Assembly (NCBI RefSeq): GCF_016801985.1
Contig: NZ_JAEVLS010000001.1
Location: 558,001 to 622,000 of the forward strand
Source: Steroidobacter gossypii
GTDB taxonomy: Bacteria > Pseudomonadota > Gammaproteobacteria > Steroidobacterales > Steroidobacteraceae
Reading direction: 5' to 3'
DNA length: 64,000 nucleotides
Made by a program: the position numbers and the translations under genes. This document shows positions 38,568 through 48,499 of the stretch, one piece after another; positions within the stretch are counted from its first letter, which is position 1, and each line of letters opens with the position of its first letter. The notes under the pieces are model-generated. The model saw only the letters and a list, made by a program, of their open reading frames with translations. It was not told the origin of the DNA and made no database searches.

Positions 38568-38813
38568 ATGAAGAAACTTTCTACTCTGGCGTTGGCCACC
38601 GCCGCCGCGGTGATGTTCAGTAGCGCCCCGCTGACCGCGGCCCAGGCGGACGAAGCCAAGGTGAAGTGCGAAGGCGTGAATGCGTGCAAGGGCACCAGCG
38701 CCTGTGGCACCCAAGCCAATGCCTGCGCCGGCAAGAACGCCTGCAAGGGTCAGGGCTTCCTGATGCTGACCAAGGCGGAATGCGACGCCGCCAAGGCCAA
38801 GCTGAAGAAATAA
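38568..38813 (+). CDS. bufA2: BufA2-type bufferin precursor (periplasmic copper-binding RiPP)
   Basis: This 81-residue protein has a Sec signal ([27 protein letters not shown]). The Cys-rich core has Cys34, 40, 46, 53 and 59 at nearly even spacing, with NACKG twice (38-42 and 58-62), plus Cys72 near the end. This is the pattern of bufferin type A2 metallophores. In bufferins, a DUF692 enzyme with its DUF2063 partner converts core cysteines to heterocycles, and the exported peptide sequesters copper. Both enzymes are encoded immediately downstream. The start at 38568 fits the GAGGA site; an ATG three codons earlier is too close. A TATACT at 38514 could be the -10 box. Confidence 0.88.
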
Positions 38814-38843
38814 CTTCGGCTCCGGCCCGGTCTGATGAACAGG

Positions 38844-38876
38844 GCGGCGCGACATCTCATGGCGCCGTCGCGCCGC
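38844..38876 (+). other. Stem-loop between bufA2 and bufB
   Basis: GCGGCGCGAC (38844-38853) pairs exactly with GTCGCGCCGC (38867-38876) with a 13-nt loop. No T-tract follows, so it is not a normal terminator. It sits in the 89-nt gap between precursor and enzyme genes and may stabilise the upstream mRNA or reduce read-through, so that the peptide is made in excess. Confidence 0.5.
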
Positions 38877-38902
38877 TTCCTGTTCCAGCCTGCGAGCGTT
38901 CC

Positions 38903-39754
38903 GTGTCTAAATCGTCTGCTCTACCCTCTCTTGGATTCGGCCTCGGCGTTCGCCCGGCGCACTACGAAGCGTTGCTGGGCGAGCGCCAGGGCAGCGTCGG
39001 CTGGCTGGAAGCCCTGACTGAGAACTATCTGGTCCCCGGCGGCAAACCGCTGCACTACCTGGAGCGGTTGCGCGCCGAATACCCGATCGTGCTACATGGA
39101 GTGTCGCTGTCCATCGGCAGCGCCGATGCGCTGAACGAAACCTATCTCGCCGAAGTGAAAGCCCTGGCCGATCGCGTCGAGCCGGCGTGGGTGTCCGATC
39201 ATCTGTGCTGGACCGGCGTCGACGGCGTCAATCTGCACGACCTCATGCCCATGCCATTCACCGAGGCGGCCTTGCGGCACGTCGTGTCGCGGATCGCTGC
39301 CGTTCAGGAACGACTCGGCCGCCGGCTGGTATTGGAGAACGTGTCCAGCTACGTGAGCTTCACCCACTCGGACATGACCGAGTGGGAATTCCTCCGTGAA
39401 ATCGCCCTGCGAGCCGACTGTCACCTGCTGCTGGATGTGAACAACGTGTATGTCAGCAGCGTGAACCACGGCTTCGATCCCATGGCCTATCTGCGCGGCA
39501 TTCCGGTGGAGCGAGTCCAGCAATTTCACCTCGCTGGTCATCGCAATATGGGCGACTATCTCATCGATACGCACGATGCGCCGGTCTGCGAGGAGGTGTG
39601 GCAACTGTTTCACGCGGCCGTGGAGCGCTTCGGCCCGGTGTCGACCATGATCGAGCGCGACGACAATATCCCCGAGATCGATGTGTTGCTCGCCGAGCTG
39701 GATCGCGCCCGCGAGATCACGGCGGCCGCACAAGCCTCCAGGTCGGCGGCATGA
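38903..39754 (+). CDS. bufB: DUF692 multinuclear non-heme iron oxidase (BufB)
   Basis: The 283-residue TIM-barrel enzyme of the MNIO (DUF692, UPF0276) family is related to MbnB. Metal-site residues are visible in [37 protein letters not shown] and STMIERDD. It should act on the bufferin precursor cysteines using iron and oxygen. The start is taken as GTG 38903, because homology ([12 protein letters not shown]) begins ten residues later and no in-frame ATG lies between it and the bufA2 stop; the ribosome site is weak. It overlaps bufC by 4 nt. Confidence 0.9.
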
Positions 39755-40530
39755 GCGACGCGCGCGCCTTGGCCGAATTGCAGCGTGACTTCCAGCGCCA
39801 TGTCATGCATGGACAAGAACGCATCATCGAGGCCGTCGGCGGAAGCCCGAGTGTGCCGGCAAGCGTTCGCCTGGGCATCTATTCCGAAGCGTATCGGCTG
39901 CGACTCACCGATGCGCTCGCAAGCACCCTGCCCCGCCTGCAACAGCTCATGGGCAAGGAGCCGTTCTCGGCGACCGCCCTCGAATATATCGACCTGTGTC
40001 CGTCCAGCTATCCCTCCATCCGCTGGTTCGGCGATCAGCTGCCGCGCCTGTTGCGACGTTCGTTTCCGGAGCAACCGTGGCTGGCCGAACTCGCCACTTG
40101 GGAATGGACCATCGCCGCGGCGTTCGACGGTCCGGATGCAGAGCCTGCGACGGTCGCGACACTGGCGGCCGTGGCCCCCGAGCAATGGCCAACGCTGCAG
40201 TTTCAGTTCCATCCGACCGTGCAATGCCTGCAGCTGCAGAGCAACGCGCCGCAGCTGTTCAAGGCGCTGACAGAAGAAACCCTGCCACCGCCCCCGGTGG
40301 CGCTCGAGCAGCCGCAAGCCTGGCTGATCTGGCGCGAAGGGCTGAAGACCCAGTACCGCTCGCTCGAAGCCGACGAGCACGCGGCTCTGGAAGTCATGCG
40401 TGCGGGAGGGACGTTCGAAGCGCTCTGCGACACCCTGTGCGCCTGGCATGAAGCGGAAGCGGTGCCCGCGCAGGCGGCGAGCATGCTCAAGCGCTGGGTG
40501 GTGGATCAAATGATCGTCGGAGTATCCTAG
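39751..40530 (+). CDS. bufC: DUF2063 partner protein (BufC)
   Basis: This 259-residue protein has the DUF2063 domain in the N-terminal 90 residues ([36 protein letters not shown]) and a variable C-terminal region. Its relatives pair with MNIO enzymes, as MbnC does with MbnB, and help recruit the precursor. It starts at an ATG overlapping the bufB stop (ATGA), so the two are produced together. The next gene starts 29 nt later but has an unrelated metabolic function. Confidence 0.88.
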
Positions 40531-41247: not shown

Positions 41248-41886
41248 ATGAAGCTCTACAATTTCTTTCGCAGCTCGGCCGCGTTCCGTGCGCGCATCGC
41301 CCTGAACCTGAAAGGTCTCGAATACGAGCGCGTCGCCAAGGCCTTCGCCAGGAACGAACATCGCGCGCCGGACTATCTCGCGTTGAATCCGCAAGGCCTG
41401 ATCCCGGCCTTGGACATCGACGGCGCGGTGATCTCACAATCGCTGGCCATCATCGAATATCTCGACGAGGTTTACCCGCAGCCGAAGCTGCTGCCGAGCG
41501 AGCCGCTGGCGCGAGCTCAGGTGCGCTCGATGGCGCTCGCCATCGCTTGTGACATTCATCCGCTCAACAACCTGCGAGTGCTGAATTATCTGCGTCACAA
41601 CCTCGGCCAGAACGAGGACGGCGTGAATACCTGGTATCGGCACTGGGTCGCCGAAGGCTTTCGCGGCCTGGAGCAGGAAGTCGCCAGGTTCTCGAGCGCG
41701 CAGCGCTACTGTTTCGGCGACAGCCTGTCGCTGGCGGATGTGTGCCTGGTGCCGCAGATGTACAACGCGCGCCGCTTCGATACCGACCTCACGGCGTTTC
41801 CCAAGCTGGTCGCGATCAGCACCCATCTGGAATCCCTGCCGGCGTTCGCGTCGGCGCGTCCGGAAGTTCAGCCCGACGCCAAGTAG
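41248..41886 (+). CDS. maiA: Zeta-class GST, maleylacetoacetate/maleylpyruvate isomerase
   Basis: The 212-residue protein has the zeta-GST signature near the N-terminus, SSAAFRARIALNLKG, where Ser and Arg contact glutathione, then LNPQGLIPALDIDG and QSLAIIEYLDEVYP. The C-terminal helical domain includes DSLSLADVCLVPQ. It isomerises maleylacetoacetate or maleylpyruvate to the fumaryl form. It directly follows the FAH gene (4-nt gap). Whether the substrate is from tyrosine or gentisate breakdown cannot be told. The SonM-like gene begins 26 nt downstream. Confidence 0.9.
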   Translation: MKLYNFFRSSAAFRARIALNLKGLEYERVAKAFARNEHRAPDYLALNPQGLIPALDIDGAVISQSLAIIEYLDEVYPQPKLLPSEPLARAQVRSMALAIACDIHPLNNLRVLNYLRHNLGQNEDGVNTWYRHWVAEGFRGLEQEVARFSSAQRYCFGDSLSLADVCLVPQMYNARRFDTDLTAFPKLVAISTHLESLPAFASARPEVQPDAK

Positions 41887-41912
41887 CCTCAGTGACCGAG
41901 CCAAGCAATCTC

Positions 41913-42713
41913 ATGAAAGGACGCGGCAGCCTGGTGTGCGTGGGTATCGGCATGACCCTCGGATCGCATCTGACTCCGCTGGCGCGCGATCACATCCAGA
42001 ATGCCGACGTGGTGTTCACCGGGCTGTCCGACGGCATCGTCGAAATGTGGATCGCGGGAATGAACAAGGATGTGCGCAGCCTGCAGCCGCTCTATCAGGA
42101 GGGCAAATCGCGCATGCAGACCTATCGCGAGATGGTCGACACCATGCTCGCCGAAGTGCGCGCCGGCAAACGCGTTTGCGCCGCCTTTTATGGGCATCCC
42201 GGCGTGTTCGCCTGGCCGACCCACAAGGCCATCGAGATCGCGCGCCGCGAAGGCTATAGCGCGCACATGGAGCCTGGTGTGTCCGCGGCCGATTGCTTGT
42301 ACGCGGATCTCGGCTTCGATCCTGGCAAATACGGCTGCCAGCACTACGAAGCCAGTCAGTTCATGTTCAATCGGCGCCGCCTGGATACCGGGGCGTATCT
42401 GATTCTGTGGCAGGTCGGCCTGTCCGGGGATCAGTCGCTGGCGCGCTTTTCCACCGGCGCGGCGTATCGACAAGTGCTGGTCGACGTGTTGAGCCGCGAC
42501 TATCCGCTGGAACACGAAGCGATCCTCTATCGGGCGGCGACGCTGCCCACCTTCACTCCGAAGATCATTCGAGTGGCGCTCGGGCGCTTGCCCCAAGTCG
42601 AAGCCGATATGCATTGCACGTTGGTGATTCCACCGGCGCAGCCACTGCAGCCCGATCATCACATCCGCGAGCGCCTCTCCGCGCTCGACCGCGAGTTCGC
42701 CGCGCAGAGCTGA
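41913..42713 (+). CDS. sonM: SonM-like peptide alpha-N-methyltransferase (split borosin)
   Basis: This 266-residue protein has the tetrapyrrole-methylase fold: GSLVCVGIGMTLGSHL (5-20), the SAM-binding FYGHPGVFAWPTH (about 91-103), MEPGVSAADCLYADLGFDPG and the conserved QHYEASQFMF. The Arg67-x3-Tyr71 pair within SRMQTYREMV matches the catalytic Arg/Tyr of OphMA and SonM. These enzymes methylate backbone amides of a peptide precursor. This branch resembles SonM of Shewanella, in which enzyme and precursor are separate proteins. A SonA-like precursor is encoded 0.9 kb downstream. A GTG at 41892 could add seven residues. Confidence 0.88.
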   Translation: MKGRGSLVCVGIGMTLGSHLTPLARDHIQNADVVFTGLSDGIVEMWIAGMNKDVRSLQPLYQEGKSRMQTYREMVDTMLAEVRAGKRVCAAFYGHPGVFAWPTHKAIEIARREGYSAHMEPGVSAADCLYADLGFDPGKYGCQHYEASQFMFNRRRLDTGAYLILWQVGLSGDQSLARFSTGAAYRQVLVDVLSRDYPLEHEAILYRAATLPTFTPKIIRVALGRLPQVEADMHCTLVIPPAQPLQPDHHIRERLSALDREFAAQS

Positions 42714-42722
42714 GGGCGGGCG

Positions 42723-43295
42723 GTGCACGCGTTTCCAGTGGAAACCGCCAGACTGCTCATGCGCCCTATCGAGGCGGCTGATGCGGCCCTCTATGAGCAT
42801 CTGTATACGGATGCCGAAACCATGCGTTTCATCGGCGCTCCTCTGTCTCCGGAACGCGCCGCCAGAAGTTTCCGGAGCGCGCTCGCCGGCATGCAGCGCC
42901 AGCCCATCGAGCGCGTGTTTCTGGTGGTGTGCGAGAAGACCACGAACACCGCGGTTGGTCTGTGCAGCCTGCAGGACTTCGATGCCGAAGCTCGCAGCGT
43001 TCAAGCTGGCTTCATGTTCGTCGCACCCGCCCGCAGCAGGGGCTATGCGAAGGAAGCCATCACGGAGCTGATTCAGCAGGTGTTCGCGCGCTTGCCGGTG
43101 GATGAGCTGTGGGTGGAATTCGCGGTCGACCATGTGGCTGTGCAGCGGGTCATGCATAGCGTAGGCTTTGCACACCGTGGCAACCTCGCCCGGCAGGAGT
43201 CTGAGCATGGGCAACGGAATGCCTGGTCGGTTCGTCGTCGATTCTGGTCGCCGCCCTCGGCGCTCACGGCATCCACTGTTCGGAACGAACGGTAA
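42723..43295 (+). CDS. GNAT-family N-acetyltransferase within the borosin cluster
   Basis: This 190-residue protein is of the RimJ/RimL-like GNAT type: TARLLMRPIEAADAALYEHLYTD at the start, FMFVAPARSRGYAKEAI as the acetyl-CoA binding motif A, and VQRVMHSVGFAHRG near the C-terminus. The start is GTG at 42723, 9 nt after the methyltransferase stop, so they are cotranscribed. It may acetylate the modified peptide, its leader-cleaved amine, or an unrelated amine. Split borosin clusters often include tailoring enzymes, but its role here is inference. Confidence 0.85.
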   Translation: MHAFPVETARLLMRPIEAADAALYEHLYTDAETMRFIGAPLSPERAARSFRSALAGMQRQPIERVFLVVCEKTTNTAVGLCSLQDFDAEARSVQAGFMFVAPARSRGYAKEAITELIQQVFARLPVDELWVEFAVDHVAVQRVMHSVGFAHRGNLARQESEHGQRNAWSVRRRFWSPPSALTASTVRNER

Positions 43296-43579
43296 CGGGC
43301 CGGAGAAATTCCGACTCCGCCCGGCGTTTCTCGCGCCAGCACGGCTGCCGAGCGCCGTTTTCACCCCATCCGGGCCCATCGAAGGGCTTCGAAACAGGCA
43401 TAATTCTGTTAACTCGCGGATCGCAATCCGATCTCGGAGCGGCGGATGAATGTTTCTGTGGAACGTTCGAGAGCCCGTCGCGGAGCGCTTGCTCTAGTCT
43501 GATCGACAGCGGGCGACAACGGCTGCGTCATGCAGCGGTCATCGATGCAACAACAAACGGGGCAGAGGAGGAGCATATC
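43296..43579. other. Intergenic region ahead of the borosin precursor gene
   Basis: The 284 nt contain no supported gene. A CATAAT (43399-43404) may be a -10 box for a promoter of the precursor, but no good -35 is seen. The 3' part ends with the strong GAGGAGGAG ribosome site. No terminator after the acetyltransferase gene is evident, so read-through from the upstream genes is possible. Confidence 0.45.
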
Positions 43580-43864
43580 GTGTCGAATGTGGTGGATCTG
43601 TTGGAAAGAATGGGCCAGAGCTCGCGCGTGCAAGCGCTCAGCAGCGAGCAACTGGCTCAGGAGCTGCGGCTCGCCGGTCTCGAGCCGGCCGTGCAAGCGG
43701 CCATCCTGGAGCAGCGCGCCCGCGAGCTCGAGGAGCTGATCGGCGCGAGCAAGAACGTGTGCTGCATGGTCCACGCGCCACAAGACGACGAGCCCGAGGA
43801 AGAGCAGCCTGCTGACGACAAGCAGATCACCGGCGTCGATCGCCGTGTCGCGCGCGCCGGCTGA
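43580..43864 (+). CDS. sonA: SonA-like borosin precursor peptide
   Basis: The protein has 94 residues, starting at GTG with a GAGGAGGAG ribosome site 7 nt upstream. Residues 1-55 form a helical leader with the layout of the borosin-binding domain (VVDLLERMGQ; LRLAGLEPAVQAAILEQRARE). A short hydrophobic and Cys-rich stretch KNVCCMVHAP (58-67) is where the SonA core lies. A strongly acidic follower comes next (DDEPEEEQPADD) and a basic end. It is small, has no signal peptide and no enzymatic motif. The SonM-like methyltransferase encoded upstream is the proposed modifying enzyme. The next gene starts 16 nt later. Confidence 0.8.
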   Translation: MSNVVDLLERMGQSSRVQALSSEQLAQELRLAGLEPAVQAAILEQRARELEELIGASKNVCCMVHAPQDDEPEEEQPADDKQITGVDRRVARAG

Positions 43865-43880
43865 GCAATCACCTAGAGCA

Positions 43881-45689
43881 ATGGGTTCCGTCCGGCATTG
43901 GTTGCTGGGCGGACTCGCTCATTTGTGCCTGTTGACGGCGGCGCCGTCGCTCGCGGCGGAGTCGCCAGACTTCGCCGCGATGCTGCAGCGGGCGGACGCG
44001 ATGAAAAGCGTCGACCCGACCGAGTTCGTACGGCTACTCGAAGATCTGCGCGAGCAGGCCGATCGGCTGACCCCGCAACAGCGCGACCAGCTGCAGTTCC
44101 TGCAGGGCTGGCGCCATGCGTACGCGGGCGAGTACACCGCGGCGGTTCCTTTGCTGGAAGCGGTCGTGGAACGATCGTCCGACCCCACGCTGCAATTCCG
44201 CGCCGGCCTGACCGCCGCCAACGTGCGCGTCCTGGCCACCCAATACGAAGGTGCCTTCCTGCAACTCAATAAACTATTGAGCAAGCTGCCGGAGGTCACC
44301 GATCCGGACGCGCGGCTGCAAGGCATGTCGGTGGCTGCCGATCTCTATGTGCTGGTCGGCGAATACGATCTGGGCATTCGCTACGCCGAACAGGTCATCA
44401 AGGAAAACGTTCGAGGTCGCGGCGTGTGTCGTGGCCAGCAGATCCGCCTCGACGCGCTGTGCAAGACCAAGCGCTTGAAGGCGGACCACCCCGACCTCGA
44501 GTCGAGCATCGAGGCCTGTCTGACGCAAGGCGAAGCGCTGGCCGCCAGCGGCATTCGCATGACCAAGGTGCGTTTGTTACTGCGAGAGCGCCGCGCGGAC
44601 GAGGCCATTTCACTGCTCGAACGGCACTACGGCGATATGGAACAGACCCGCTATCCACGCGGCATTTCCGAATGGGAGTCGCTGATGGCGCAGGCCTATC
44701 AGCAGCGAGGCTTTGGGGCCGAAGCGCAGCGCTACGCTCTCCAATCGGTCGCACACAGCGTCAAGGACCAATTCACGTTGCCGCTGGTGAGCGCATATCG
44801 CGTGCTCTATGAAGAGGCCGAGAAGCGCGGCGACCTGGCGAACGCCATCGCCTACCTGAAAAAATCGGCCGCCGCGGACAAAACCTATATCGACGACGTG
44901 ACCGCACGGCAGCTCGCCTATGAACGGGTCAAGTCGAACACGCTGTCCACCAAGTCGCAGCTCGAAGCGCTGAATCAGGAGAACAAGCTGCTGCAATTAC
45001 AGCGCGAGCTGGACAGCAAGGCGGCCGAGACCAGTCGCCTGTACATCGCGCTGCTGATGCTGGTGCTTGTGTTCATCGCGCTGTGGGCCTATCGCACCAA
45101 GCGCTCGCAGCTGTATTTCATGAAGCTGTCGCAAGTGGACAGCCTGACCGGCATCGCCAATCGGCCGCGCTTCATCCAGCTCGCCGAAGCGGTGCTCGAA
45201 GCGGCGCGTAAATCGCAGCAGCAGGTCAGCGTCGTGCTGTGCGACCTCGATCATTTCAAAGCCATCAACGATCGCCACGGCCATGCCGCAGGCGATCACG
45301 TGCTGCGCCAAGCGGTGATGGCGTGCCAGGCACATCTGCGCGTCAGCGATATTTTCGGCCGCGTCGGCGGCGAAGAATTCGGCATCGTGCTGCCGGGCTG
45401 CGGACTCGACGACGCGCGGCAACGCGCCGAACGGCTGCGGCAGGCTCTGATCGCCATCGATCCGCACTACGAGGGTGCGCGTTGTCCGGTCTCGGGCAGC
45501 TTCGGCGTCACCTCCACCGAGCAGTCAGGCTACGAACTGCGCCAATTGCTGGCGCACGCCGACGCGGCGTTGTATCGAGCCAAGGCTGCCGGACGCGATC
45601 GGGTCACGCCGTTCGATGGTGGCAGCCTCACCCCCGATCAAAACATGATCGGCGTCGACAACGGTCTGCGCAGCGCCGGTAACGCCTGA
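43881..45689 (+). CDS. TPR-GGDEF diguanylate cyclase, exported sensor
   Basis: This 602-residue protein has a signal peptide (LLGGLAHLCLLTAAPSLAAE), a periplasmic TPR-like region (about 30-360), a coiled coil, a transmembrane helix near 395-415 (LYIALLMLVLVFIALWAY) and a cytoplasmic GGDEF domain with SLTGIANR, LDHFKAIND and the intact GGEEF. The RVSD five residues before GGEEF is an RxxD inhibitory site. It therefore should make cyclic di-GMP with product feedback. It lies 16 nt after the borosin precursor and probably shares its transcript. Confidence 0.9.
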   Translation: MGSVRHWLLGGLAHLCLLTAAPSLAAESPDFAAMLQRADAMKSVDPTEFVRLLEDLREQADRLTPQQRDQLQFLQGWRHAYAGEYTAAVPLLEAVVERSSDPTLQFRAGLTAANVRVLATQYEGAFLQLNKLLSKLPEVTDPDARLQGMSVAADLYVLVGEYDLGIRYAEQVIKENVRGRGVCRGQQIRLDALCKTKRLKADHPDLESSIEACLTQGEALAASGIRMTKVRLLLRERRADEAISLLERHYGDMEQTRYPRGISEWESLMAQAYQQRGFGAEAQRYALQSVAHSVKDQFTLPLVSAYRVLYEEAEKRGDLANAIAYLKKSAAADKTYIDDVTARQLAYERVKSNTLSTKSQLEALNQENKLLQLQRELDSKAAETSRLYIALLMLVLVFIALWAYRTKRSQLYFMKLSQVDSLTGIANRPRFIQLAEAVLEAARKSQQQVSVVLCDLDHFKAINDRHGHAAGDHVLRQAVMACQAHLRVSDIFGRVGGEEFGIVLPGCGLDDARQRAERLRQALIAIDPHYEGARCPVSGSFGVTSTEQSGYELRQLLAHADAALYRAKAAGRDRVTPFDGGSLTPDQNMIGVDNGLRSAGNA

Positions 45690-45811: not shown

Positions 45812-46531
45812 ATGACCGACTCCCGCCATATCCTCATCGTCGATGACGATCGTGAAATTCGCACTCTGCTGGGCGACTACCTGCAGAAGAATGGCTTTCG
45901 CGCCACGGCCGTGGGCGATGGCAAAGCCATGCGTCGCGCTCTGGAACAGTCGCATGTCGACCTGATCGTGCTCGACCTGATGTTGCCGGGCGAGGACGGC
46001 CTGAAGCTCACGCGCGAGCTGCGCGCTCATTCGCAGATCCCTATCCTCATGCTCACCGCGCTGGGCGAGGAAGTCGACCGGGTCGTTGGCCTTGAAGTCG
46101 GCGCCGACGATTATCTTTCCAAACCGTTCAGCCCGCGCGAGCTGGTCGGAAGGATCAAAGCGATCCTGCGGCGGACGGCACACATGCCGCGCGACCCTTC
46201 GCAAAGCCAGGTCACCACTTATCGCTTCGGCGACTGGAAACTCGATGTGACGGCGCGCTCGCTGACCCACGCCGACGGCTCGCAACATGCGTTGAGCGGC
46301 GCCGAGTTTCGTCTGCTTGCCGTGCTGCTGGCTCATCCCACGCGAGTGCTGTCACGCTCGCAATTGATGGAGCTGCTGCGTGGACGTGACATCGATCCTT
46401 TCGATCGCAGCGTCGATGTCCGCATCAGCCGGCTGCGACAGGTGCTGCGCGATGACGCGCGCTCGCCCAAGATCATCAAGACGGTTTATGGCGAAGGCTA
46501 CGTGATGGGCGTTCCGGTCGAACAGGAATGA
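45812..46531 (+). CDS. OmpR-family response regulator
   Basis: The 239-residue protein has a receiver domain with DDD at 11-13, acceptor Asp55 in LIVLDLMLPGEDG, TALG and the Lys in LSKPF. A winged helix follows at about 140-235 (HALSGAEFRLLAVLL, RSVDVRISRLRQVL, VYGEGYVMG). It overlaps the kinase gene that follows by 4 nt, so the two form a cognate pair of the OmpR/RstA kind. The target may include the Spy-like gene encoded directly downstream. Confidence 0.93.
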   Translation: MTDSRHILIVDDDREIRTLLGDYLQKNGFRATAVGDGKAMRRALEQSHVDLIVLDLMLPGEDGLKLTRELRAHSQIPILMLTALGEEVDRVVGLEVGADDYLSKPFSPRELVGRIKAILRRTAHMPRDPSQSQVTTYRFGDWKLDVTARSLTHADGSQHALSGAEFRLLAVLLAHPTRVLSRSQLMELLRGRDIDPFDRSVDVRISRLRQVLRDDARSPKIIKTVYGEGYVMGVPVEQE

Positions 46532-47937
46532 CGGCCTTGCGCTCGCTGCTGCCCGACACGTTGTTTGGACGCCTCTTCGTGGCGACCGTGGGCGTGATCG
46601 GGGCCATGCTGCTGGTATTCGTCCTGCTGATCGTACGAGAGCGCCGCGAGCTCGCGCTGCTCGAGAGCGGCGCCGGCAGCTCGGCCAACCTGATCGCCGA
46701 GACCAGCCAATACCTGGCGGGATTGTCCCAGGAACAGCGCGACGAGGCTCGCACCCAGCTTCGCGAGCAACGTCTCTCGCCGAGCGACGTGCGCCCGCCG
46801 CCGCGGCGCATCCCTGATGAACAGCAGGCCGCGCTAGAGCGAGCGTTCGCCGCTCATCTGCAGCGCCATCTCGGTCCAGACTACAAAGTCTCTACCGGCC
46901 CGCCGCGGGCCCGACGCGGCGATGTCATTCCCCTATACGCGATCCGCAGGGAGCCGCCGCCCGAACAACCCACTCTGCGCATCCGCCGCTTCGAGCGAAT
47001 ATTCGATGTCACGGTGACTTTGCCGGACGGCGACAAAGCGACGTTTCGTACGCTGGCGCCCCGCTCCGGGCCGCCGTTGCCGCGGATGATCTTCCTCGAG
47101 CTCGGCATCCTCGCCGTCGCGCTGAGCGTGGTGTTGTATGCGATGACACGCACCATCACTCGTCCTCTTGGCGATCTCGCCCGCGCCGCCGACGAGGTCG
47201 GTCGCGGCGCCACTGCGACTGCGTTGAAGGAAACTGGAGCGAGAGAGCTGCGTCGTGCGACACGTGCGTTCAACTCCATGCAGGAGCGCTTGCGTCGCTA
47301 TCTCGACAGTCGTACGCAAGTGCTCGCGGCGATGTCACATGACCTGCGCACACCACTGACACGCCTGCGCTTGCGAGTGGAATCCATCGATGACGACACG
47401 CTGCGCCAGCGCTGCATCGAGGATCTGGACGAGATGTCCAACATGGTTCGCGGCGCGCTCGGCGTGTTTCGCGGTTTGAACGATGAAGAAGCCGCCGTGC
47501 CGGTGGACATCGACGCGCTTGCACGCGAGCTGCAGCGACAACATGCCGAGCTTGGTGACGATGTGACCATCGTGGGTTCGGCGCGCGCACCCTACGTCGC
47601 CAAGCCACTCGCGTTGAAACGTTGTCTCGGCAACCTGGTGCAGAACGCGATTCGCCACGGCGCGCGGGCCAGCATCCATATCGAAGACGGCCCGCAACTC
47701 ATCCTGCGTGTTTGCGACCAAGGCCCGGGCATTCCCGAAGACATGCTGGAGAAAGTGTTCGAGCCGTTCTTTCGCCTCGAGCAATCGCGCAATCGCGACA
47801 CCGGCGGCACCGGCCTGGGGCTGAGCATCGCCCGCGATATCGCCCAGGCCCACGGCGGTTCACTATCTCTCCACAATCGGCAGAGCGGCGGTCTGGAAGC
47901 CCGGCTGGTGCTGCCCAGGGAAGCAGCAAGCCGCTGA
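46528..47937 (+). CDS. Sensor histidine kinase (EnvZ/RstB-like)
   Basis: The 469-residue protein has transmembrane helix 1 at about 14-36, a periplasmic domain of about 150 residues rich in Arg and Pro, and helix 2 near 190-210 (FLELGILAVALSVVLYAM). HAMP follows with RTITRPLGDLARAADEVG, then HisKA with AAMSHDLRTPLTRLRLRVE and HATPase with NLVQNAIRHG, DQGPGIP and GTGLGLSIAR. It shares a 4-nt overlap with its response regulator. The positively charged sensor region could bind anionic ligands, but no known sensor fold is recognised. Confidence 0.92.
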   Translation: MTALRSLLPDTLFGRLFVATVGVIGAMLLVFVLLIVRERRELALLESGAGSSANLIAETSQYLAGLSQEQRDEARTQLREQRLSPSDVRPPPRRIPDEQQAALERAFAAHLQRHLGPDYKVSTGPPRARRGDVIPLYAIRREPPPEQPTLRIRRFERIFDVTVTLPDGDKATFRTLAPRSGPPLPRMIFLELGILAVALSVVLYAMTRTITRPLGDLARAADEVGRGATATALKETGARELRRATRAFNSMQERLRRYLDSRTQVLAAMSHDLRTPLTRLRLRVESIDDDTLRQRCIEDLDEMSNMVRGALGVFRGLNDEEAAVPVDIDALARELQRQHAELGDDVTIVGSARAPYVAKPLALKRCLGNLVQNAIRHGARASIHIEDGPQLILRVCDQGPGIPEDMLEKVFEPFFRLEQSRNRDTGGTGLGLSIARDIAQAHGGSLSLHNRQSGGLEARLVLPREAASR

Positions 47938-48052
47938 TTCTGCTTGACTTTACGACATTACAGTTAGTAACACTTCATTACCGCACGCGGCCCGCCGCCG
48001 GCCTATTCTGAAGCCGTGTTCTGAAACGACACGCACTAACGGAGACACTGTG

Positions 48053-48499
48053 ATGAAAACCAAAGTCACCCTGCTTGCGCTTGCCTGGCTTGCCAGTGGC
48101 GTGGCCTTTGCCGCCGAAACCACGGCGACTCCGGCCGCTCAAAGCGAGGCCCGCACGGTCAAGCGCGGTCCGGACATGGACCGGATGGCGCTGCTGCTGG
48201 ACCTGAACGACTACCAGAAGACCGAGGTCGAGAAGATCCTCAACGAGCATCATCAGCAGGTCCGTGCCGCGCACGAAGCGACTCGCGCCACGGGCGCACG
48301 TCCGTCACGCGAAGAGATGAAAGCTCTGCGCGAGCAACACAAGCAGGAACTCAACGCCAAGCTCAGCGGCGTGCTGACGCCGGAACAGCTGAAGAAATTC
48401 GACGCTCTGCGCGAGCGTGGCCCTGGCCGTCACTTCAAGCGTGGTCCCGGCGGCCACGGTGATGGCAATGACGCTGACGCGGCGAGCACCAGCAGCTGA
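48053..48499 (+). CDS. Spy/CpxP-like periplasmic protein
   Basis: This 148-residue protein has a signal peptide (MKTKVTLLALAWLASGVAFAA) and a helical mature part with LTPEQLKKFDALRERG, the LTxxQ repeat of the Spy/CpxP chaperones. The C-terminus is Gly/His/Arg-rich (FKRGPGGHGDGND). ATG 48053 follows GGAGA; a GTG just before it is the other option. Spy and CpxP are induced by envelope stress. Its position 115 nt after an OmpR-type pair suggests it is a target or an accessory regulator of that system. A strong terminator follows. Confidence 0.85.
   Translation: MKTKVTLLALAWLASGVAFAAETTATPAAQSEARTVKRGPDMDRMALLLDLNDYQKTEVEKILNEHHQQVRAAHEATRATGARPSREEMKALREQHKQELNAKLSGVLTPEQLKKFDALRERGPGRHFKRGPGGHGDGNDADAASTSS

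Follow-up and report, generated by a model that had tools for sequence, protein, structure and literature searches.

A predicted split-borosin locus of Steroidobacter gossypii in which the precursor peptide is closely paired with a TPR-sensor diguanylate cyclase

We analysed a stretch of 64,000 nucleotides from Steroidobacter gossypii (assembly GCF_016801985.1, contig NZ_JAEVLS010000001.1, positions 558,001 to 622,000 of the forward strand; hereafter the window, numbered from its first base), in which an initial annotation made from the letters alone had proposed a split-borosin cluster for a ribosomally synthesized and post-translationally modified peptide (RiPP). The three genes that it named, for a SonM-like methyltransferase, a GNAT acetyltransferase and a SonA-like precursor peptide, are found at 41913-43864 of the window, and they are followed by a gene for a diguanylate cyclase with a tetratricopeptide repeat (TPR) sensor. 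Judged by homology, the locus belongs to the type IV split borosins and carries additional parts; we regard its assignment to the borosins as nearly certain, and the cyclase is very probably a functional part of it. The best explanation, to which we give a probability of about 0.55, is a split-borosin locus tied to cyclic di-GMP (c-di-GMP) signalling, with a backbone-methylated peptide that would act as the ligand of a c-di-GMP-making receptor.

The methyltransferase is encoded separately and without a fused core. Among PDB sequences it matches SonM best (Table 1) and fungal OphMA at an E value of about 1e-45. It had been described as carrying an Arg67-x3-Tyr71 pair, and both residues align with those of SonM: the SonM residues Tyr58, Arg67, Tyr71 and Tyr93 correspond to Tyr61, Arg67, Tyr71 and Tyr93 of the window protein, and these SonM positions have been tested by mutation (PMC8429565). 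All four residues are invariant in 11 methyltransferase homologues of at least 65% identity, and in an alignment of 13 sequences, which adds two methyltransferases of 42-48% identity, Arg67 is found in 12 sequences and Tyr61 and Tyr71 in 11. A class-wide search with the methyltransferase of a Rhodanobacter locus (L081) as the query matched 3 of 274 genomes at E = 1e-40, these being the window's own and two others with a methyltransferase 38% identical, and a search of 72,556 plasmid records gave seven matches at E = 1e-20, all below 60% identity.

The peptide, annotated as lying 0.9 kb downstream, starts 867 bases past the last base of the methyltransferase gene. As a single sequence, the 94-residue protein has no match in Pfam, NCBIfam or PDB. 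When 13 relatives are combined in a profile, SonA comes first among 177,635 PDB sequences (E = 0.0024), and a profile of 72 relatives finds SonA at E = 4e-7, ungapped over residues 1-59, in line with the earlier claim that the leader matches the borosin-binding domain. Since it has this profile match, is 72-76% identical in four close relatives and is matched at E < 1e-9 in 12 of 200 genomes of the family (35 further genomes with matches only at E = 0.001-0.1 were left out as chance level), the open reading frame (ORF) is, on comparative grounds, more than a chance ORF. An AlphaFold model (mean pLDDT 64) shows helices at residues 3-13, 22-31, 36-43 and 47-54 and a short one at 17-19, with a low-confidence tail after them; a Foldseek search with this model returned SonA chains at the top (9 of 18 matches, TMt 0.60-0.68, all E values above 1). 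The window thus holds a separate precursor whose profile match, together with four modelled helices and a short one, points to an N-terminal five-helix borosin-binding domain. The alignment with SonM and SonA that the initial annotation had suggested as a check therefore yields a close SonM homologue and a peptide homologous to the borosin-binding domain of SonA.

We observe that the company of methyltransferase, precursor and cyclase is conserved across genera. A contig scan gave 422 relatives of the methyltransferase, and the locus set consists of the best 80 of these 422, that is, the closest ones, with near-duplicates included (e.g., L090 and L092). These loci come from Steroidobacter kin, Rhodanobacter, Dyella, Luteibacter, Fulvimonas, Frateuria, Tahibacter and metagenome-assembled genomes, the nearest named relatives in the methyltransferase locus search being Steroidobacter agaridevorans and Peristeroidobacter species. 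Locus L096 ends at the methyltransferase; in all other 79 the precursor and the cyclase accompany it, the cyclase in 79 of 79 and the precursor in 78 by the first profile and in the 79th, L114, by the larger one (E = 4e-7), so that a precursor is encoded beside the methyltransferase in the window and in every continuing locus. For 91 of the 94 sensor matches in these loci a precursor lies at most 900 bases upstream (the exceptions are in L106, L114 and L135), a count in which the second cyclase of L133, split in two pieces, figures twice; the locus count merged cyclases less than 300 bases apart and so hid the second cyclase of L135, which was found in the later count. In 11 loci (L084, L091, L095, L098, L099, L100, L102, L104, L105, L108 and L133) one methyltransferase is followed by at least two precursor-cyclase pairs.

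The search for conserved co-occurrence, also put forward by the initial annotation, was carried into the 200 family genomes, where the methyltransferase is found at E = 1e-15 in 20; it is at least 65% identical in 11 of these 20, and the precursor and the cyclase lie directly downstream in 11 of 11. The other nine family methyltransferases (40-48% identity) have neither precursor nor sensor in the stretches read, of which L072 ends at the methyltransferase and L064 2.4 kb beyond it, and the link of methyltransferase, precursor and sensor seems, from these comparisons, to belong to one clade of the enzyme. Loci L066-L072, which come from another genus (g18) of the same bacterial family, represent a different group of SonM-like enzymes (~40-45% identity), and the partners described here were not seen in the stretches read. 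The sensor occurs in 13 of the 200 genomes, 11 with methyltransferase and precursor, one (G135) with the precursor and one (G085) with neither; this count scored nine first-look candidates in many genomes, and more sensors are possible there. In G135 the precursor (E < 1e-9) stands at a contig edge, with the cyclase after it.

Within the locus, the peptide and the cyclase are the tighter pair, and the cyclase is the most constant partner of the peptide. Twenty-four whole genomes picked from the loci and searched for all three proteins gave 69 precursor matches (four or five fragments included), 33 methyltransferases and 48 sensors. The pairing follows from two counts: for 46 of the 48 sensors a same-strand precursor match lies 71-295 bases upstream (a partial one in two cases, G485 and G488), and the five precursor matches without a methyltransferase within 12 kb are each followed by a sensor cyclase. 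A methyltransferase lies within 12 kb of the remaining 64 of 69 precursor matches, and 32 of the 33 methyltransferases have both precursor and sensor within that distance; peptide homologues that never occur with the methyltransferase, which would have spoken against the cluster, were thus not seen. Homology to SonM and SonA and this co-occurrence together support the predicted split-borosin identity of the locus, the parts, order and constancy of which are established at the level of sequence.

The gene order methyltransferase, GNAT, precursor, cyclase was foreseen correctly. The cyclase stands as the fourth gene, its ATG start (43881) lying beyond the annotated range, and its weight as the most constant partner of the peptide had been underrated. 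Its predicted architecture runs from a signal or anchor helix through a TPR superhelix and a single transmembrane helix (hydrophobic at about residues 385-405) to a GGDEF domain, with GGEEF at residue 496 and the inhibitory-site RVSD (RxxD) five residues before it; both a GG(D/E)EF site and an RxxD site are therefore present, and c-di-GMP synthesis is predicted. GGEEF is found in 87 of the 94 sensor matches of the loci, the other seven being ORFs of 140-461 residues, and the inhibitory site in 80. The sensor is a single copy in the window's genome (7.1 Mb), and its predicted periplasmic TPR region is family-specific and sets these cyclases apart. The sensor sequence has no match in PDB better than E = 0.27; Foldseek with the sensor model returned many TPR proteins (E ~1e-5 to 1e-4, TM-scores ~0.4-0.6), among them LGN-partner complexes and the pheromone receptors Rap and NprR with peptides (NprR-NprX). 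Stop-codon read-through from precursor into cyclase was considered and rejected, since they share a reading frame in 31 of 91 units, as expected by chance.

Behind the leader, the window precursor continues with a short Cys-bearing stretch and then an acidic tail. Among the 90 cyclase-adjacent precursors of the loci, Cys falls within residues 55-70 in 53; about 31, chiefly of Dyella and Luteibacter kin, have a Pro-Gln-type stretch in place of the Cys pattern (32 by regular expression, with L123 misfiled among them), and the remainder have neither. The core is duplicated in some precursors (e.g., L097, L098 and L117), and duplicated cores are a feature that RiPP precursors may carry. Tails are more acidic in cyclase-adjacent precursors than in other copies (90 versus 25, Mann-Whitney P = 2e-9, kinship ignored), and extra precursor copies with short, less acidic tails exist. 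A Luteibacter locus (L134:6846-9102) holds seven precursors in a row and then one cyclase, with an acidic tail on the last precursor only. SonM methylates Leu63 and Ile65 of SonA (PMC8429565), which fall on Met63 and His65 of the window precursor if the ungapped register holds; by analogy, its backbone is probably methylated after translation.

Table 1. Features of the predicted borosin locus in the window
Feature	Position	Strand	Basis or remark
SonM-like peptide backbone N-methyltransferase	41913..42713	+	266 aa, TP-methylase fold; SonM 7ltc_A E 3e-71, TP_methylase (PF00590) E 9e-21
Open frame of the methyltransferase	41742-42713	+	start taken = ATG 41913
GNAT acetyltransferase, RimL-like, optional, probable tailoring enzyme	42723..43295	+	GTG start; PF13302 (Acetyltransf_3) E 1.5e-25
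Likely ribosome-binding site of the precursor, AGAGGAGGAG	43564..43573	+	read from the sequence
SonA-like precursor peptide, 94 aa	43580..43864	+	GTG start; family profile finds SonA
Predicted borosin-binding domain (leader), residues 1-55	43580..43744	+	profile match to SonA 1-59; predicted helices
Putative core, residues 57-67 (SKNVCCMVHAP)	43748..43780	+	Cys-bearing stretch in precursors of relatives
Acidic C-terminal tail (follower), residues 68-94	43781..43861	+	tail acidity compared across precursors
TPR-sensor diguanylate cyclase, 602 aa	43881..45689	+	ATG start; GGDEF E 3e-42; sensor model pLDDT 88
Predicted periplasmic TPR superhelix, residues 31-335, candidate peptide receptor	43971..44885	+	model; PDB matches are TPR proteins
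GGDEF domain, intact GGEEF and inhibitory site	45132..45602	+	domain profile and motif reading

The GNAT gene starts 9 bases past the stop of the methyltransferase gene. GNATs share the acetyl-CoA motif (Q/R)xxGx(G/A), here RSRGYA at residue 104, and the PDB match is 2fck, a putative ribosomal-protein-serine acetyltransferase (E = 4e-4). The claim that it is a likely tailoring enzyme between methyltransferase and precursor held for the position; the role is plausible but weaker than proposed, as 63 of 90 precursor-cyclase units, among them those of the relatives G150 and G193, lack the GNAT, which nevertheless adjoins the precursor where present and is fused to the methyltransferase in two genomes. 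Of the 80 loci, 28 carry it; in 27 it is directly followed, 20-422 bases on, by a precursor that the first profile recognises, and the adjoining precursor of the 28th, L114, is recognised by the larger profile. In L095, L099, L104 and L108 it goes with the second unit, away from the methyltransferase, and the fusion is found in two sister genomes (L110:5890-7365 and L123:5929-7356, the same contigs as those of G074 and G044), where the adjoining precursors end in long Lys-rich, histone-like tails; it may represent a single event, since L110 and L123 are sisters in the sensor tree. We therefore find it doubtful that the GNAT is a passenger gene beside a type IV split borosin with its cyclase, a view favoured by the many units that do without it and opposed by the constant place directly before the precursor, the association with second units and the fusion, and we lean towards the view that it acts on the peptide. 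A proposed tie between the GNAT and an Asn before the core (21 of 27 GNAT units versus 2 of 61 without; 20 of 27 versus 3 of 45 by a cruder regular expression) was rejected, because shared descent accounts for it equally well: in a quick tree built from 88 sensors, six changes of the GNAT label suffice, and the independent pairs number two. In RiPP classes other than the borosins, GNATs act either on the N-terminus of the core once the leader is gone, which they acetylate (goadsporin, albusnodin and microviridins; PMC12048977), or on side chains, which they acylate (selidamides; PMC9505594), and the passages of these two papers that bear on GNATs contain no GNAT-borosin link. By analogy with them, acetylation of the core N-terminus after leader removal would be a likelier model than side-chain acylation.

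SonM/SonA of Shewanella oneidensis, a type IV system (PMC8429565), likewise has a separate TP-methylase-fold enzyme with the same active-site residues and, encoded by an adjacent gene, a separate precursor with an N-terminal borosin-binding domain and the core after the leader. Unlike SonA, with its chain of 71 residues, the window precursor of 94 has an acidic tail of about 27 residues past a Cys-bearing core, and its locus differs in the GNAT between enzyme and precursor and in the TPR-sensor cyclase after the precursor. According to the discussion of PMC8429565, no type IV pathway had yet been tied to a final natural product. The bacterial split arrangement is shared with split borosin types V-X and type XI (PMC11395268), and the legend of Figure 1 in that paper names a GGDEF domain among borosin architectures, in a wording that tells neither the type nor whether the domain is fused or neighbouring; a link between borosins and GGDEF proteins has thus been drawn before. 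In the portions of the open-licence literature that were covered, we found no tight pairing of precursor and sensor cyclase, no such pairs at a distance from a methyltransferase, no methyltransferase-GNAT fusion, no work joining RiPPs, an N-methyltransferase and a precursor peptide with a diguanylate cyclase and no link from ribosomal backbone N-methylated peptides to c-di-GMP.

The receptors of the RRNPP type, such as Rap and NprR, offer a second comparison. Their genes are paired with genes for peptide precursors, and the receptors are cytoplasmic with a helix-turn-helix (HTH) or Rap-type output. The likeness to the window lies in the TPR superhelix, found among the Foldseek matches of the sensor model; in contrast to a cytoplasmic receptor with an HTH or Rap-type output, the window receptor is predicted to be membrane-bound, by a signal or anchor helix and a transmembrane helix, has a GGDEF output, belongs to the Gammaproteobacteria and would face a peptide predicted to be backbone-methylated.

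The mechanism that we propose takes its early steps from SonM/SonA: the leader would dock on the methyltransferase, which would methylate backbone amides of the core, around residues 59-66. The GNAT may acylate this class of peptide, a protease encoded elsewhere would release the core, and the modified core would cross the membrane, a passage for which N-methylation is favourable (PMC8429565). It would then bind the periplasmic TPR superhelix of the adjacent cyclase and change its c-di-GMP output, each precursor serving as the private ligand of the adjoining cyclase and one methyltransferase serving several pairs. That a peptide and its own membrane signalling enzyme keep such near-constant company suggests a signalling role for peptides of this kind, although we give only an even chance to the narrower statement that the peptide is the cognate ligand or regulator of its cyclase. 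More tentative still is a peptide-pheromone system in Gammaproteobacteria, in which N-methylated, and in some cases GNAT-acylated, ribosomal peptides would be membrane-crossing ligands of dedicated periplasmic TPR receptors that make c-di-GMP, with one methyltransferase maturing the signals of several pairs.

Several observations weigh against a signalling pair. Cyclases without a precursor exist, namely 2 of the 48 in the whole genomes (G495 and G485), the second cyclase of L135, one in L106 by the first profile, and the orphan TPR-sensor cyclase of G085 (L167, a contig of 5.7 kb), for which neither that contig nor, according to the family searches, the rest of the genome shows a precursor or a methyltransferase. 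Eleven distant methyltransferase loci (~38-48% identity), the short L072 and L064 among them, show neither precursor nor sensor. Among the five methyltransferase-distant precursors, that of G488 is only a 41-position match, and that of G480 lies 1.9 kb from a contig end, where a methyltransferase may be cut off. The putative core varies, and roughly one precursor in three has the Pro-Gln-type stretch, which lacks the Cys pattern. TPR folds have a wide range of binding partners and the structural matches are loose, so that TPR likeness is no proof of peptide binding, and no conserved exporter or protease stood out near the loci in a scan that was noisy with antisense ORFs of GC-rich DNA.

The same evidence bears on what else the locus could be. 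It is highly improbable that it is not a RiPP locus at all, the small protein being an unrelated helical protein and the methyltransferase acting on something else: such a reading would account for the lack of single-sequence matches and leaves the collinear, ungapped profile match to SonA and the constant company of methyltransferase and precursor unexplained. The lack of a conspicuous exporter or protease, and the acidic tail that goes with the cyclase-adjacent copy, would suit a precursor kept in the cell as a small regulatory subunit, methylated, with leader and acidic tail retained, and with the cytoplasmic face of the cyclase, or a c-di-GMP partner, as its target; yet the distinguishing trait of these cyclases is the family-specific region predicted to be periplasmic, and their GGDEF domain has ordinary active and inhibitory sites, which makes this improbable.

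A stronger rival, and still an unlikely one, is that the borosin is a natural product such as an antimicrobial or a metal binder, that the cluster's own c-di-GMP enzyme controls its production or export, and that this cyclase senses something else, the peptide not being its ligand. Biosynthetic clusters often include regulator genes, a core with a Cys pair could bind metal, and the extra precursors with short, less acidic tails would fit a product. One regulator per cluster would be enough, however, and yet the arrays have one cyclase per precursor group, and five precursor-cyclase pairs stand without a methyltransferase within 12 kb. Taken together, the pairing, the pairs far from a methyltransferase, the multi-pair loci and the acidic tails fit a peptide and its receptor better than a product with its regulator.

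With respect to the neighbouring genes, the GST, FAH, DUF692, DUF2063, two-component and LTXXQ genes were considered as parts of the locus and rejected: they are syntenic in the four nearest genomes (L054-L057) only, with no syntenic match in the other six loci around methyltransferases of 65-73% identity. Just upstream, at 38568-40530, we observe a second RiPP-like cluster. It comprises a Cys-rich peptide of 81 residues, probably with a signal sequence, as well as an MNIO enzyme (PF05114, E = 2e-111) and a DUF2063 protein, and we take it to resemble bufferin-type clusters; among the loci read, synteny of the genes for the MNIO enzyme and the DUF2063 protein is confined to the four nearest genomes. 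Downstream, at 45812-48499, lie genes for a response regulator, a histidine kinase and an LTXXQ-like protein, whose synteny is likewise confined to those four genomes.

The locus is present in named strains of Rhodanobacter, Dyella, Steroidobacter and Povalibacter, and gene deletion tests therefore look feasible. The methyltransferase-GNAT fusion suggests that a borosin is modified in a second step. If the c-di-GMP signalling reading is true, backbone N-methylation would be joined to c-di-GMP signalling, and a clade of bacterial borosins would have a concrete, testable role.

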